From the NCBI GenBank assembly GCA_026168605.1, contig JAPFDX010000001.1, forward strand, positions 248,001 through 312,000: 64,000 bases of DNA. Direction: 5' to 3'. Position 1 is the stretch's first letter. The number at the start of each line of letters is the position of its first letter. The notes under the pieces were generated by a model that had not been told where the DNA came from, did not search any database, and was given only the letters and a program-made list of their open reading frames with translations. Source of the DNA: Roseburia sp. Lineage in GTDB: Bacteria; Bacillota; Clostridia; Lachnospirales; Lachnospiraceae. A program made the translations under genes and the position numbers. This document shows positions 1,639 through 45,643 of the stretch, in pieces.

Positions 1639-2257
1639 AGGGATTTTAGTAGTGGTATCCGGTTTTTCCGGTGCAGGCAAGGGTACAATCATGAAGGAGC
1701 TGATGCAAAAGCACAGCGACCAGTATGCGCTTTCCATTTCGGCGACGACCAGAGCGCCGCGCTGTGGCGAGACCGACGGCGTGGAATACTTTTTCAAGAG
1801 CCGTGAGGAGTTTGAGCAGATGATCGCAGACGGCGAGCTGGTCGAGTATGCACAGTATGTCGGCAATTATTACGGAACGCCGCGCGCCTATGTGGAGGAG
1901 CAGCTTGAGGCGGGCAAGGACGTTATTTTAGAGATCGAGATTCAGGGTGCGCTGAAGGTGAAGGAGCGTTTTCCGGATACGCTGCTCCTGTTTGTGACGC
2001 CGCCGAGTGCGGAGGAACTTAAGAACCGCTTGGTCGGACGCGGCACGGAGACGATGGACGTGATCGAGTCGCGTCTTGCAAGGGCTATGGACGAAGCGGA
2101 CGGCATTGAGGCGTACGATTATCTGGTGATCAACGACGTACTGGACGCGTGTGTGGCAGAGGTGCACGAGATCATCAAAAACGAGCATTACCGCGTATCC
2201 CGCAATCTGAGCGCGATCAATAATATGAGAAATGAACTGAAAAGTTTTAAGCGCTAA
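1625..2257 (+). CDS. gmk: Guanylate kinase
   Basis: A 210-residue guanylate kinase, phosphorylating GMP to GDP with ATP. The P-loop GFSGAGKG sits at residues 13-20. The GMP-binding region follows with SISATTRAPRCGETDGVEYFF, then EYAQYVGNYYGTP and the lid region around FVTPPSAEELKNRL. The ATG at 1625 lies inside remA (14-base overlap), implying translational coupling; a longer open frame from 1526 would add about 33 non-conserved residues. The rpoZ ATG follows 25 bases after the stop. Confidence 0.96.
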   Translation: MQKNKGILVVVSGFSGAGKGTIMKELMQKHSDQYALSISATTRAPRCGETDGVEYFFKSREEFEQMIADGELVEYAQYVGNYYGTPRAYVEEQLEAGKDVILEIEIQGALKVKERFPDTLLLFVTPPSAEELKNRLVGRGTETMDVIESRLARAMDEADGIEAYDYLVINDVLDACVAEVHEIIKNEHYRVSRNLSAINNMRNELKSFKR

Positions 2258-2281
2258 ACGGCGCAGAAAGGGAGAATAACT

Positions 2282-2530
2282 ATGATACATCCATCTTATG
2301 TAGAACTTATGAAGGTCGTAAATAATGACGTGGAGATCGGTGAGGAGCCGGTGGTAAACAGCCGTTACTCGATCGTGATCGCAACTGCAAAGCGTGCGCG
2401 CCAGATTATTTCGGGAGCTGTGCCGATGGCGGAAAAGGTCGTATGTCAGAAGCCTCTTTCTGTCGCAGTAGAGGAAGTCTACGAGGGCAAGGTGAAGATT
2501 CTTCCAGAGGCGGCGGAGACAGAAGAATAA
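2282..2530 (+). CDS. rpoZ: RNA polymerase omega subunit
   Basis: An 82-residue RpoZ, the small subunit that assists beta-prime folding and RNA polymerase assembly. The MIHPSYVELM start, SRYSIVIATAKRARQI and the clostridial PLSVAVEEVYEGKVKI tail are recognisable. AAAGGGAG lies about seven bases before the ATG. It closes the yicC-remA-gmk operon and is followed by a terminator. Confidence 0.95.
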   Translation: MIHPSYVELMKVVNNDVEIGEEPVVNSRYSIVIATAKRARQIISGAVPMAEKVVCQKPLSVAVEEVYEGKVKILPEAAETEE

Positions 2531-2552
2531 GCTGTGACAGAGCAGACAGGAT

Positions 2553-2590
2553 GAGCCGTTACACTCCGTGGACGGCTCTTATGTTTTTAT
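2553..2590 (+). terminator. Intrinsic terminator after rpoZ
   Basis: Stem GAGCCGT (2553-2559) pairs with ACGGCTC (2572-2578) around a 12-base loop, followed by a T-rich run (TTATGTTTTTAT). Confidence 0.75.
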
Positions 2591-2619
2591 AATGAGAAAG
2601 AAGAGAGAAAAAGAGAAAT

Positions 2620-3942
2620 ATGAAGTTATTATTTATTTCCCTGGGATGCGATAAGAATCTGGTGGACACCGAGTTTATGCTTGGTATGCTGCGCGACGAC
2701 GGCATCAGCATGACGGACGATGAATATGAGGCGGATGTCATCATCATCAACAGTTGTTGTTTCATCAACGATGCGAAGGAGGAGAGCATCAACACCATTT
2801 TGGAGATGGCGGAGCACAAAAAGGATGGCAATCTGAAGGCTCTGATCGTCACCGGGTGTCTGGCGCAGCGCTATCAGGATGAGATCAAAAAAGAGATCCC
2901 GGAGGTTGACGCGATCCTCGGCACGAATTCCTATGAGGATATTGTGAATGCCGTACACCGCGCGCTCGAGGGCAGTTTTTACCACAATTACAAGACGCTT
3001 GAAGGACTTCCGGGGATTCATACGAAGCGGACGGTCACCACGGGCGGACATTTTGCTTATCTAAAGATCGCTGAGGGCTGCAATAAGCGCTGCACCTACT
3101 GTATCATCCCGTACATCCGCGGAAATTACCGCAGTGTACTGATGGAGGAGCTTTTAGCGCAGGCGCGTGAGCTTGTGGCGGGCGGCGCGAAGGAGCTGAT
3201 CCTCGTCGCGCAGGAGACGACGCTCTACGGCGTGGATCTCTATGGGGAGAAGTCACTCCACCGTCTGCTGGACGAGTTAAACAAGATCCCGGGATTGTTC
3301 TGGATCCGGATCATGTACTGCTATCCGGAGGAGATCTACGGGGAACTGATCGATGCGATGATCAGAAATGAAAAGGTCTGTCACTACCTCGATCTGCCGA
3401 TCCAGCACGCGAATGATGCGATGCTAAAGCGCATGGGCAGGCGCACAAGCAATGCGGATCTGGTGCGCATCATCACCAATTTGAGAACGAGGATTCCCGA
3501 CATCACGCTGCGCACGACGCTGATCTGCGGTTTTCCGGGTGAGACACAGGAGATGCACGAGGAATTGATGCGGTTTATCAACGAGATGGAGTTTGACCGT
3601 CTCGGCGCCTTTACCTATTCCCCGGAGGAGGGGACGCCTGCAGCCGAGTTTCCGGACCAGATTGACGAGGAGCAGAAGAAAGAGTGGCAGGCGGATGTCA
3701 TGGAGCTCCAGGAGGAGATCATCTTTGACAAAAACGAGGAGATGAAGGGGCGTGAGCTCTTTGTCTTTATCGAGGGAAAGGTCGCGGATGAAAATGTCTA
3801 TGTCGGACGCACCTACCGGGATGCGCCGGATGTGGACGGCTATATTTTCGTACAGACAGAGGAAGAACTGATGACCGGGGATATCGCAAAAGTGCGTGTG
3901 ACCGGGGCGTATGAGTATGATTTGACAGGAGAATTGCTATGA
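2620..3942 (+). CDS. rimO: Ribosomal protein S12 methylthiotransferase
   Basis: A 440-residue methylthiotransferase that adds a methylthio group to an aspartate of ribosomal protein S12. The N-terminal domain (about 1-120) has the three cysteines of the auxiliary iron-sulfur cluster (C10, C46, C80). The radical SAM core carries CNKRCTYC (C154, C158, C161). A C-terminal TRAM-like domain starts near residue 375. SLGCDKNLVDTEFM and IPYIRGNYRS are typical of RimO rather than MiaB. The stop overlaps the pgsA start (ATGA), so the two are coupled. Confidence 0.95.
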   Translation: MKLLFISLGCDKNLVDTEFMLGMLRDDGISMTDDEYEADVIIINSCCFINDAKEESINTILEMAEHKKDGNLKALIVTGCLAQRYQDEIKKEIPEVDAILGTNSYEDIVNAVHRALEGSFYHNYKTLEGLPGIHTKRTVTTGGHFAYLKIAEGCNKRCTYCIIPYIRGNYRSVLMEELLAQARELVAGGAKELILVAQETTLYGVDLYGEKSLHRLLDELNKIPGLFWIRIMYCYPEEIYGELIDAMIRNEKVCHYLDLPIQHANDAMLKRMGRRTSNADLVRIITNLRTRIPDITLRTTLICGFPGETQEMHEELMRFINEMEFDRLGAFTYSPEEGTPAAEFPDQIDEEQKKEWQADVMELQEEIIFDKNEEMKGRELFVFIEGKVADENVYVGRTYRDAPDVDGYIFVQTEEELMTGDIAKVRVTGAYEYDLTGELL

Positions 3943-41834: not shown

Positions 41835-43235
41835 TTACTGTATCAGGTCGTTTTCTTTGATCTTTGAGCCGTCCAGCGCGATATGGTCGTACAGCGCGAT
41901 GCCATAATCCGTCCCCTTGCGCACAATGGAATACTCCTCATTCTGGTACAGAATATCGATCTGCTTGAACACAGCGTAGCCCTTGTTGATATTGTAGACG
42001 CCCTGCAACGTCGCGGTCTTTTCCCCAACCTTGTAGGATGCGCTGGAATCGGGTTTTAAAATGGAATCCTTCGACGAGACTTCCTCGTTATCAATATAAT
42101 AATATTCCTCTGTTTCATAGTAAATCGTCGGTGCTATAAATTCTGTATATTTCTTGCCATCCTTGTCCGTGCGCTCCACCAGGATCCCCTCATTTTGGGA
42201 ATCGCCGCCGCGCATGAAATATTCCTTTGGCACGGTGAAAAATTTTTTCTCGGTGATGGCGGAATTTGGGATTTTTAATCCCGTTCCCTCGTTCAGCAAA
42301 AGCTCCACTCCGACATAGCGGTCTTTGGCGTAGCGGATCATGGAATTTTTCAGCGTGAGGATCACGTAGTCCTGCCCATCACGGTTCGTCAGTGTGTATG
42401 TGGCATACGCCGTTTTGTTGTCCTTCACAAAACGGAGTTTCAGCGTATCGTCGTCCGACAACTCCGCCGCGACCGCCTGCGGTACGGGAAGCACGATGTT
42501 CCAGTATTCGCTTGTGATCAGCTTGTACGCAGCAGATCCCGCCTGGATGTTGGAACCGTTCTGGTTGCTTACTCTGGTGTACGACGCCTCGTGAAACATA
42601 TCCGCAGTGAAGTTGTCCGGGGTGATCGACTCATAGCCGTCCGTGTAGTACACGACCACGCCGTGCGTGTCCGCTGCAGCCGTGTGGAACGCGCTGCCCG
42701 CCGCCCCCGCCGTATAATCGCCAAGCTGCGACAGGGCATTCAGATTCAGCGCTTCATTCAGCGAGGAATCGATATTTTCCTTGAATGAGTACACATTATA
42801 AAAGTTCTGCGGGTCGTAGGTGCTCTGGAAATCGTAAATATTTTCCTCGATCTCATTTAACACGTCGGCGTCAAGCGCTGAAACGTCCTGTCCCGTGGAA
42901 TCGATCAGATCGGAAATCGAGCCGTTCTCGTCGATGGAATACACGAGGTTGTTGTAGCTGACTTTTGAACCTTCCTTGACATAGAGATTCAAAACGCCCG
43001 TATAATCTGCGTAGTACACCTGCTCCTCGCGCAGGATCAGACCGCGGTAAATGTGGTTTGCCGCCATCGTGCCCTGCTCGACCTCGTAGGGAGAGATATG
43101 GGTTGCCGTCACATAGGAAAAAACATTGTAAACCAGATAGATAAAAATAATGACAAAGATAATGACCCCGATATTGAGATTAAAAGGTTTGTGGTATTTG
43201 ACCACCTTTTTATTGTTATCCAAAAGCGTTTCCAC
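41835..43235 (-). CDS. HlyD-like membrane protein of the sepF operon
   Basis: A 466-residue protein with one N-terminal membrane helix (about 22-41) and a large external region. Residues about 75-105 (GVLNLYVKEGSKVSYNNLVY) and 310-335 resemble the biotinyl-lipoyl and barrel strands of HlyD/RND adaptors, but the middle is low in recognisable motifs. No ABC transporter or porin is nearby; it leads the yggS-sepF-ylmH operon. I infer an envelope or division-related adaptor role, without direct evidence. It is the first gene of its unit, divergent from a DUF378 gene. Confidence 0.75.
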   Translation of the reverse strand: METLLDNNKKVVKYHKPFNLNIGVIIFVIIFIYLVYNVFSYVTATHISPYEVEQGTMAANHIYRGLILREEQVYYADYTGVLNLYVKEGSKVSYNNLVYSIDENGSISDLIDSTGQDVSALDADVLNEIEENIYDFQSTYDPQNFYNVYSFKENIDSSLNEALNLNALSQLGDYTAGAAGSAFHTAAADTHGVVVYYTDGYESITPDNFTADMFHEASYTRVSNQNGSNIQAGSAAYKLITSEYWNIVLPVPQAVAAELSDDDTLKLRFVKDNKTAYATYTLTNRDGQDYVILTLKNSMIRYAKDRYVGVELLLNEGTGLKIPNSAITEKKFFTVPKEYFMRGGDSQNEGILVERTDKDGKKYTEFIAPTIYYETEEYYYIDNEEVSSKDSILKPDSSASYKVGEKTATLQGVYNINKGYAVFKQIDILYQNEEYSIVRKGTDYGIALYDHIALDGSKIKENDLIQ

Positions 43236-43348
43236 CTCTACAAAAATTCAATACTTATATTTTATCATTTTACGCAAAATAAAACAATGTCAAGGCTGCA
43301 TAAATATCATTCTGTTGGAAAATACTAAGAAAAAAGGAGGAATTACAC

Positions 43349-43561
43349 ATGAATACAAATTGGCTGGATTATACATTGCTTACACTGGTCATTATCGGAG
43401 CCGTCAACTGGGGTTTGATCGGTTTCTTCCGCTTTGACCTTGTGGCATTTATCTTTGGGGATATGTCCTGGCTGACAAGGATCATCTATGCCGTTGTCGG
43501 ACTGGGCGGACTGTACCTGATCAGTTTGTTTGGACGGATCCGCTCTATGGAGCAGTCGTAA
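43349..43561 (+). CDS. DUF378 small membrane protein
   Basis: A 70-residue protein of the DUF378 family with two hydrophobic helices: LLTLVIIGAVNWGLIGFF and IIYAVVGLGGLYLISLFG. Function is unknown. AAAAAGGAGG before the ATG is a near-perfect ribosome binding site. It stands alone between the HlyD-like gene (divergent) and a long foldback repeat that starts ten bases after its stop. Confidence 0.9.
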   Translation: MNTNWLDYTLLTLVIIGAVNWGLIGFFRFDLVAFIFGDMSWLTRIIYAVVGLGGLYLISLFGRIRSMEQS

Positions 43562-43570
43562 GGCTGTCTA

Positions 43571-44015
43571 TTTTTCTGCGAAACAGAATTTGCAACCACT
43601 CGGAAAATTCGGAATTTTTATAAATCTGCACTCCGAAATGTATGATTATCCGTGTTTTTTCAACGCCAGTACAAATTGCGCACAGTGTTCGCCGGAGAAA
43701 GGACATCTTTCACGGGCTTTTGTGCCGCTCTTATAAGAGTGTCCGAGCAAAACATAATCGCAGCGACCGAATGTTTGAGATACATTCTACAATCTTTTTA
43801 ATGGTAGAATGTATCGAGTTTCGGCGCTGCGATTTCATGATGTCTGCGAGGACACTCTTTTAGAGCGGCTAAAAAGTTCGTGTGATGTCCTGCTCCGGCG
43901 AACACCGCGTGCAATTCGTTCTTTCGTGAAAAAACACAGACATGATTCCGGAGTGCAGATTTATAAATTCACGGATTTTCCTCGAATGGATTGAAATTCT
44001 TGTTCCGCAGAAAAA
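43571..44015. repeat. Long imperfect foldback (inverted repeat) element
   Basis: This 445-base gap region is a single imperfect palindrome. The left arm (43571-43790) and the reverse complement of the right arm (43804-44015) align along their whole length, by eye about 70% identical with a few indels, around a 13-base loop. Shared blocks include TTTTTCTGCG, ATAAATCTGCACTCCG, GTGTTTTTTCA, GTGTTCGCCGGAG, AAGAGTGTCC, AATCGCAGCG and GATACATTCTAC. Read inward, both arms could encode similar peptides (FINLHS, FF, TNC-xx-CSPE). No convincing gene, transposase or known RNA family is recognised. It may be two inverted copies of a dispersed unit, a MITE-like element or a structured RNA. Confidence 0.85.
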
Positions 44016-44080
44016 CCCACCGCCACACACGCATATCACACAAATCCGATTCAAATAACTCATACGGCATTCCCGGACAA

Positions 44081-44111
44081 AAAAAGTGCTGTATTTTCAC
44101 ACAGCACTTTT
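44081..44111. terminator. Bidirectional terminator after the P-loop protein gene
   Basis: AAAAAGTGCTGT (44081-44092) and ACAGCACTTTT (44101-44111) form an 11-base stem with a short loop. It ends the long minus-strand mre/min unit and separates it from the foldback element. Confidence 0.85.
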
Positions 44112-44123
44112 ACGTCAATCAAA

Positions 44124-44546
44124 TTATAAGGAAATGACAATTTTCGCCTTCGCGCACTCCGGAAGCAGAGCCTTATCACGGGATACGCTGAGCACGAATT
44201 TCACATTGTACTTCTCACTGATCACGTCAAGCTTCTGGATCGCGTGACTGATCTGCTCATCGTCGCTGATGCCGGCGATCGTGAGGAAGCTGTCTAAATA
44301 CATCTCTTCCAGGTCATTGTCCTGCGATACGATGCCGCAGATAAAACCGAGGAATTCGTCGCAATTATCAATCGGATAATCTGTAACATTGATGAGCCGG
44401 ACCTTGTTATTCAGCTCATACATATGCTTCTGGCTCTTGTCGAGGTATACGATATTACCGGACGCAGATGTGATGGAAGCATTTACCTTGCTCAATAATT
44501 CTTTCGTCTTGCCTTTGCCTTTTTCACCTGAAATAATTTCTATCAT
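44124..44546 (-). CDS. Small P-loop ATP-binding protein of unknown function
   Basis: A 140-residue protein starting MIEIISGEKGKGKTKELL, a Walker A motif at 7-14. A Walker B-like strand is suggested by EEMYLDSFLTIAG and a later KFVLSVSRD strand. It resembles a minimal RecA-like or twitching-motility-type ATPase and I do not recognise a named family. AGGAGG lies eight bases before the ATG at 44546; upstream in-frame codons to 44657 are AT-rich and unlike protein. It follows dacA-like gene by 110 bases and may have its own promoter. Confidence 0.72.
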   Translation of the reverse strand: MIEIISGEKGKGKTKELLSKVNASITSASGNIVYLDKSQKHMYELNNKVRLINVTDYPIDNCDEFLGFICGIVSQDNDLEEMYLDSFLTIAGISDDEQISHAIQKLDVISEKYNVKFVLSVSRDKALLPECAKAKIVISL

Positions 44547-44656
44547 GGCCATTTCCTCCTGGTAGTACTGTTTTATGCATACTCTTTTGTAAATATGTAT
44601 AAAAGCAGTTGATTTTATAAACCAATTATAGTATATGTGCACATAAAACACAACCA

Positions 44657-45643
44657 CTAATTTGCAAACCCAGCCAGCATTTCGTTCATCAGCAGATAGA
44701 GATTTGATTTGCCGTCCGCCTTAAAGACGATGGAAATGATCGGATTCCCCTTGGGATTGTAGGAGTAGAGCACCAGACAGTACCCCGCGTCCCCGGTTGT
44801 TCCTGTCTTGCCCCCGACGATGGAAAAGCCCTCCGGCGTCTCCGTCGCCCCGGTCAGATACTGGTTGGTATTCTCCCATGTCTTTTCCACAGCCTTATTG
44901 CCCGCGCTCGTGTACACCACGTCATAGGACTTCGTGCTGATAATATCGGTAAAAGTCTCGTTTTCCAGTGCTTTTGCAAAAATCAGGTACATATCGTAGA
45001 CGGTCGTGTAATGGTTTTCATCCGGCAGTCCGTTCGGATTGACAAAATGCGACTGTGTCGCACCGATCGCCGCAGCCTCCTGGTTCATCAGCTCGGCAAA
45101 CGCTTCTACCGATCCCGAGATGTGTTCTGCGATCGCGATCGCGGCGTCGTTGCCGCTGCGCAGCATCAGACCGTAGAGAAGATCCCGGAGCTTTACAATG
45201 TCCCCTGCTTTCAGATCGCAGACCGACGAGTCGGACGCCTGGTTGGCGGCGTTTTCGCTGACCGTCACAAAGACGTCCAGATCCTCGCAGTATTTGAGGG
45301 CGATGTAAGCGGTCAGAACCTTTGTCGTGCTCGCCGGATACAAGCGCTCATACAAATTTTTGGCATAGGTGACCTCCCCGGTCGCAAGATTGAATACGCC
45401 CGCTCCCTCTGCCACCTGCGAATTTGTTGTGTCCGTGCCGAGGGCGATGTCCTCCGAAACGCACAGATCGCTGGCAAAATAAGTTTTATCCTCTGCCAAA
45501 GCCGCAGAGGAGATGCCAAGGGCGTCCGCTGTCCCGTAGACGTCGTAAGCGCCCGCCAGCGGCTTACCTTTCCCACAGCCGCTTACGCCAAGGGCGAGAA
45601 CAAGCGCAGTGACAACCGCAATCGTTTTACTTATACATCTCAC
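44657..45643 (-). CDS. D-alanyl-D-alanine carboxypeptidase lipoprotein (PBP5-like)
   Basis: A 328-residue S11 peptidase that trims the peptidoglycan pentapeptide. A lipoprotein signal ends at C23 (VSGC). The serine-transferase motifs are S105-TTK (SxxK), S163-G-N165 (SxN) and K279-TG. It lacks the C-terminal PBP5 beta domain and amphipathic anchor, in keeping with lipid anchoring instead. The ATG overlaps the end of mgsA by 17 bases, so it belongs to the rodA-mgsA unit and fits its cell-wall theme. Confidence 0.92.
   Translation of the reverse strand: MRCISKTIAVVTALVLALGVSGCGKGKPLAGAYDVYGTADALGISSAALAEDKTYFASDLCVSEDIALGTDTTNSQVAEGAGVFNLATGEVTYAKNLYERLYPASTTKVLTAYIALKYCEDLDVFVTVSENAANQASDSSVCDLKAGDIVKLRDLLYGLMLRSGNDAAIAIAEHISGSVEAFAELMNQEAAAIGATQSHFVNPNGLPDENHYTTVYDMYLIFAKALENETFTDIISTKSYDVVYTSAGNKAVEKTWENTNQYLTGATETPEGFSIVGGKTGTTGDAGYCLVLYSYNPKGNPIISIVFKADGKSNLYLLMNEMLAGFAN

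Follow-up and report, generated by a model that had tools for sequence, protein, structure and literature searches.

The long palindrome at positions 43571-44015 of a 64,000-nucleotide stretch of Roseburia sp. DNA (contig JAPFDX010000001.1, positions 248,001 to 312,000; hereafter the window) is one copy of a hairpin family that is dispersed in parts of the Lachnospiraceae and is probably, though by no means certainly, a non-autonomous foldback DNA element amplified lineage by lineage. The members of this family have a full length of approximately 520-650 nt. They have multiplied and diverged, have been kept as hairpins, and are found at the 3'-ends of genes. In the aligned copies, double changes preserve the rod, and certain mismatches and loops remain fixed.

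Structure of the Hairpin in the Window

The palindrome was predicted to fold as a single continuous rod, both as RNA and as DNA. The folding energies of the core were determined to be -236.5 kcal (z = -23.2) for RNA and -140 kcal (z = -21.9) for DNA, and in either case none of 100 dinucleotide shuffles was equally stable. Inverted-repeat blocks of 42 nt (79%), 34 nt (74%), 23 nt (96%), 18 nt (83%), 15 nt (93%), and 14 nt (93%) were found. These blocks and folds demonstrate that the imperfect foldback reported in the original prediction is real, and the 12-bp apical stem, the 13-nt loop, and the two internal palindromes described there are present at the positions given for them. The location of the element was also correct, but the right end, when the element is aligned to its sisters L009 and L010, falls at approximately 44055 rather than at 44015. 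The left outer arm is shorter than in L009 and L010 and stops approximately at the stop codon of the DUF378 gene. The features of the window copy are collected in Table 1. The Ts that follow GAG show a one-base alignment gap in some of the 40 aligned copies.

Table 1. Features of the Hairpin Element in the Window and of Its Neighbors
Feature	Positions	Strand	Basis
DUF378 gene, left neighbor, 3'-end facing the hairpin	43349..43561	+	Pfam DUF378, E = 2e-26
Whole foldback element	43562..44055	.	Aligned to sisters L009 and L010; folds of the core
Left arm	43571..43790	+	Inverted blocks; RNA and DNA folds
Small palindrome CTCTTATAAGAG in left arm	43728..43739	+	Read from the sequence
Lower apical stem, left side	43756..43771	+	Sequence varies among species, pairing retained
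Conserved internal-loop motif TGTYTGA	43772..43778	+	Invariant except Y in 40 aligned copies
Terminal stem, left side	43779..43790	+	12 bp, perfect in the window copy; covaries across copies
13-nt loop with TTTNAAT	43791..43803	+	Invariant save N in 40 aligned Roseburia copies
Right arm, imperfect reverse complement of the left arm	43804..44015	+	Inverted blocks; folds
Terminal stem, right side	43804..43815	+	Covaries across copies
GAGTT, facing side of the TGTYTGA internal loop	43816..43820	+	GAG the same in all 40 aligned copies
Lower apical stem, right side	43820..43834	+	Copy alignment; covariation
Small palindrome CTCTTTTAGAG in right arm	43855..43865	+	Read from the sequence
Terminator-like stem-loop of right neighbor, outside the element	44082..44111	.	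Read by eye
Right neighbor, 3'-end facing the hairpin, earlier called a P-loop gene	44124..44558	-	No Pfam match

Copies and Distribution of the Family

Using the window DNA as the query, 19 matching stretches at 15 places were found in the same genome, and a second query gave 18 matches. Many further copies exist elsewhere. A chance palindrome or a local duplication, which was to be the conclusion if no copies existed anywhere, is ruled out by them. BLAST gave matches in 4 of 60 genomes of the genus. Forty copies were used to build a covariance model of the 95-nt apex, and its 13 matches in the own genome include partial ones. With this model, matches at E ≤ 0.01 were obtained in 7 of 62 genomes of the genus (the own genome, G035, G047, G053, G058, G007, and, weakly, G013). 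At E ≤ 0.001, 3 of 397 genomes of the family (3 of 334 genera) were found to be carriers, namely the own genome, G235, and G362, in a scan with stricter filters and 10 candidates scored per genome, so that carriers may be missed. G235 and G362 represent two further genera of the Lachnospiraceae that carry the family. The scoring of 150 candidates placed the hairpin at no fewer than 78 distinct places in G035, which is a single contig of 3,592,125 bases, and at 20, 5, 3, and 1 in G235, G362, G007, and G058, respectively. At one locus of G047 and one of G053, a 100% match was obtained to the Roseburia MAGs SUG84 (3.3 kb) and RGIG9039 (3.5 kb), respectively.

A pattern search of genome contigs returned 16 hits, of which 10 are hairpins, all from Roseburia MAGs, and 6 have no hairpin; the pattern requires the TTTNAAT loop, and copies like those of G362 would escape it. 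No match was obtained when plasmids were searched by blastn with the window copy or when phages were searched by blastn with a G035 copy. The single viral hit to the pattern (L140) was rejected as a family member because it is not a hairpin. The Rfam search of positions 43000-44700 returned no family at the gathering score, and the microRNA-like matches, which fall far under their gathering scores, were taken as chance fits to a long hairpin. The openly accessible literature, with subscription papers and preprints largely outside it, contained no description of such a hairpin family in the parts consulted, and the family is apparently undescribed.

Anatomy of the Copies and Their Ends

Almost the full length of the element consists of its inverted arms, and by this it qualifies as a foldback. 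The middle 80% of 73 G035 copies span 522-656 nt, with extremes of 200 and 1136 nt, and the self-complementarity of the arms is approximately 68-80% in long copies. At the apex, the stems vary by species yet pair, and they flank TGTYTGA and GAG(TT). The TGTYTGA motif is also present in four of the five G362 copies and in the six G235 copies inspected; the TTTNAAT loop is not kept in the copies of G362 or G007. Shorter copies and remnants occur. By self-search, no hairpin was found at L195, L198, L203, L216, L230, L273, and L275, some of which are cut by contig ends. In G035, three remnants retain the ends of the element and have lost the middle (L283, 1466-1595; L282, 2018-2126; L281, 3763-3973).

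The terminal inverted repeat of the G035 copies is AAAAAGGRAYTGYCGCA. Its core, with one mismatch allowed, was found at 90 of 146 G035 ends, and the sequence past the T tract is random. A longer end pattern with up to three mismatches matched G035 28 times in the forward and 28 times in the reverse direction, and the backward control gave 0 matches. The two ends within one copy are more alike than ends from different copies (0.72 vs 0.61; 23 copies; 0 of 2000 permutations). Outside the element, the paired end sequence was hit 3 times in 312 kb of flanking DNA, once in the 102.5 kb taken from loci of relatives, and not at all in the window. Since it is this rare, the paired end sequence seems to be the element's own, and the suggestion that the ends are host terminators split by an insertion in their loop was rejected.

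Gain and Amplification

The gene to the right of the window copy was matched in 54 of 62 genomes of the genus, and the DUF378 gene lies next to it in 27 of the 30 loci fetched, the own locus included. The gap between the two genes is 565 bp in the own genome versus 47-221 bp in all 26 fetched relatives with the same neighbors, and from this difference it follows that the hairpin was gained at the window locus. In G035, G047, G053, and G058 the window locus is empty and the family is present at other sites. Within G035, the nearest copy to a given copy has a median identity of 91% and a maximum of 96%. Comparisons of G035 copies with those of other genomes gave medians of approximately 69-76%, over shorter alignments. 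The high identity within G035 relative to that across genomes points to amplification inside lineages. Hairpins near orthologous genes in two species were observed in four strong pairs (L083/L114, L040/L003, L054/L113, and L079/L091), which may be old shared copies or the result of a repeated choice of site.

The ends were inspected for target-site duplications, as had been suggested, and none was found: in the 20 usable of the 37 aligned G035 copies, the best flank repeat averaged 4.3, versus 4.3 for mismatched pairs. No autonomous transposon with the ends of the family was seen in G035 by means of the end pattern and the DUF772 family. As possible autonomous elements of G035, two stray ends and a 130-bp pair were considered, and these turned out to be small remnants; no obvious transposase was seen by eye among the listed ORFs of the two stray-end loci. 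An IS1182-type source was rejected because the sole DUF772 match of G035 has neither the end motif nearby nor an inverted repeat resembling the ends of the hairpins. The DUF772-type transposase stretch, apparently a remnant, is located at approximately 1470-1725 of L139 in G035. In another G035 locus, L078, a gene at approximately 1920-3450 lies inside a hairpin copy whose adjacent apex is intact. From its sequence we take this gene to encode an IS110-family transposase, and it was assigned to a secondary insertion rather than to the element itself.

The original prediction had offered three explanations: a diverged inverted pair of a dispersed unit, a non-autonomous foldback transposon, or a large structured RNA. 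Of these, the foldback element is preferred on the strength of the dispersed whole-hairpin copies, the filled versus empty site, the lineage-specific amplification, and the terminal inverted repeats; a structured RNA fits less well. The term transposon is not proven, since neither a target-site duplication nor an autonomous partner was found.

Genomic Context

The flanking ORFs of 112 copies were compared (73 of 78 from G035, 15 of 20 from G235, 5 of 5 from G362, 6 from G047, 7 from G053, and 6 of 13 from the own genome). This set omits L038, L078, and L079, which are interrupted or short; L273, L275, and L230, in which the self-search detected no hairpin; and the G235 contig-end loci L227, L228, L232, and L234. 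The ORFs were chosen by length without a gene finder, and the edges of the hairpins were taken from self-alignment. The flanking ORFs are convergent for 67 copies, tandem for 41, and divergent for 4. Among neighboring ORF pairs in the same flanks, 13 of 148 are convergent, a rough baseline that is biased by nearness to the copies. The median distance from the hairpin edge to a stop codon is 10 nt (n = 175), and that to a start codon is 91 nt (n = 49).

No recurring partner was seen among ten neighbors scanned in the flanks of L036, L066, L069, L073, and L077 of G035. The flank genes of G035 that could be matched are ordinary and include those for the small subunit of acetolactate synthase, xanthine phosphoribosyltransferase, transporters, and phosphatases.

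Local terminators directed inward were found at 15 of 224 ends, versus 1.2 in shuffled sequences and 29 in 224 interior segments. T runs are present at 72 of 224 exits, compared with 27 outside and 105 inside. For L070 and L211 the terminator scanner reported terminator-like sites at the ends, and for the window copy only a weak one at the left junction. L211 (1239-1840, in G007) carries a near-identical terminator-like hairpin at either end, both directed inward.

Maintenance of Base Pairing

The covariation test over aligned copies that had been proposed was positive. Of the 284 paired columns in the alignment of 37 G035 copies, 110 contain double changes, for a total of 462 cells versus 15-57 when the partners were slid. 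In the apex there are 174 double-change cells, versus 48 in shuffled and 13-29 in slid controls. Close copies differ chiefly by single-sided changes, and the ratio of double changes to broken pairs rises with divergence, from 0.08 in the 92% identity bin to 0.44-0.55 below 72%. This increase fits a repeated restoration of pairing, either by selection or by repair of the folded hairpin.

Is the structure that is maintained one of RNA or one of DNA? A family of large structured RNA genes, in which a transcribed rod acts as a hairpin RNA of 500-600 nt with conserved internal loops, would account for the covarying stems that surround invariant loops. It would also lead one to expect G·U pairs in preference to A·C mismatches, and there is no such preference across the arms: broken pairs in normally pairing columns are G·T in 240 cases and A·C in 242, and among all mismatches in 10,400 pairs the counts are 315 G·T and 339 A·C. 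The equality of G·T and A·C fits a structure at the level of DNA, or of both strands, better than one of a single RNA strand. The wobble test is blind if both strands are used equally, which is a concern here, as most copies are flanked by convergent genes and could be read on both strands, the bias thereby being masked.

The innermost 25 positions do lean toward G·T (55 vs 16 in G035; 38 vs 10 elsewhere), the next 25 lean toward A·C (G·T vs A·C, 6 vs 62 in G035; 12 vs 22 elsewhere), and in G035 positions 50-150 lean toward G·T and 150-225 toward A·C, with much of this pattern coming from fixed columns that are common to the copies and are not independent. The transcribed strand of the tandem copies shows a slight lean to G·T (396 vs 342). 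However, the orientation of the 41 tandem copies to transcription is mixed (16 with, 11 against, and 14 not assignable), promoter-like sites in three scanned copies did not exceed those in shuffles, and no Rfam family was recognized at the gathering score in positions 43000-44700. We consider a structured RNA gene unlikely. The long arms fit better as a palindrome at the DNA level, and from the distribution of mismatches a strand-specific role for the apex is possible.

The pairing could instead be selected because the DNA structure benefits the host as a two-sided barrier between convergent genes, whether as a terminator, an insulator, or a relief of supercoiling. The convergent setting of 67 of the 112 copies, with edges at stop codons, is in keeping with this, as are the retention of pairing over long divergence, with double changes building up after single ones, and the ends of the G035 copies, which are T-rich after a G+C-rich base stem. 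Such a barrier would nevertheless be patchy, given the few carriers in the genus and the family, and it is missing from the window locus of 26 relatives. Complete local terminators are rare. Judged by eye, the right neighbor of the window copy seems to retain a terminator of its own, intact, outside the element. The terminator scanner did not list that stem-loop; stem-loops resembling it are present in several relatives without the element. A host barrier is an unlikely account of the family.

It is also conceivable that the element is functionless and that its arms match solely because one arm is copied onto the other at replication. One clear event is seen in L201 of G362, where the apical loop of one arm has been swapped for the exact complement of the other arm and the four sister copies differ; this resembles templated palindrome correction occurring in nature. 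The apex of L077 in G035, which contains a perfect run of 32 bp, and the lack of an overall bias in the type of mismatch point the same way. Against copying as the sole cause, the longest perfect run averages 17.6 bp over the 112 copies, versus 17.8 in shuffles, and p ≤ 0.02 is reached by only 5 among the 14 copies listed (approximately 2 of 112 are expected by chance). In addition, at 12 columns an identical mismatch is found in 35-37 of the 37 G035 copies, and double changes, scarce among close copies, become more frequent as the copies diverge. Templated copying events happen, but they are not the whole story, and as a complete explanation they are quite improbable.

The proposal that both arms encode related Cys-containing peptides can be dismissed, since, although the FINLHS and TNC..CSPE frames are present in both arms of the window copy and the 37 G035 copies contain stop-free runs of 83-154 codons, those copies show no period-3 signal and the left-arm substitutions relative to two sister copies are distributed 22/20/16 over codon positions 1/2/3, without bias; the family is apparently non-coding.

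Discussion

A long palindrome does not usually persist in a bacterial chromosome. Several known systems resemble the Roseburia element in part. Bacterial MITEs (ERIC/RU-1, Correia/NEMIS, RUP, and BOX) are approximately 50-170 bp in length. The Roseburia family is like them in being non-coding, dispersed, intergenic, and hairpin-forming, with terminal inverted repeats. It is unlike them in its length of 520-650 nt, its full-length arms, covarying stems, and fixed loops, and in that neither a target duplication nor a partner was found. The REP and REPIN sequences are likewise palindromic, lie at the 3'-ends of genes, and are associated with RAYT; REP units are 20-40 bp long. The foldback elements Tm1, Galileo, and FB share the long inverted arms but are eukaryotic, and are likened here by architecture. 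Folded single-strand DNA sites, such as integron attC and the ends of IS608, combine paired stems with conserved unpaired bases as the present element does, but they measure from tens of bases to approximately 140, compared with approximately 600 here. The large structured bacterial RNAs in Rfam have the same covarying stems and conserved loops, and differ from the Roseburia hairpins, which lack a wobble preference over the arms and, in the window copy, match none of them at the gathering score.

For a non-autonomous foldback DNA element, the following sequence of events may be envisaged. The element would extrude or fold as DNA, either as a cruciform or as a single strand during replication, and selection, repair within the hairpin, or the two together would preserve the match between its arms. 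A candidate enzyme would move, or would have moved, the element in trans through recognition of its ends when folded or of the conserved loop at its apex. Between convergent genes a copy could survive since no promoter would be disturbed, and the base stem with its T tract may still terminate transcription from both sides. It is tempting to go further and to regard the family as a new class of mobile DNA, in which a folded DNA rod of approximately 600 nt with fixed loops and covarying stems is recognized by its structure and not by its sequence, settles between convergent genes, and replaces their shared terminator. That broader proposal is tentative, and we regard it as doubtful at present.

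A human gut commensal seems to hold at least 78 copies of one hairpin family, and these copies have remained paired despite large divergence. Since a single genome offers so many natural copies, the extrusion of cruciforms, the repair of hairpins, and transcription between convergent genes become directly testable. The conserved apical loop provides a concrete target in the search for a binding protein.
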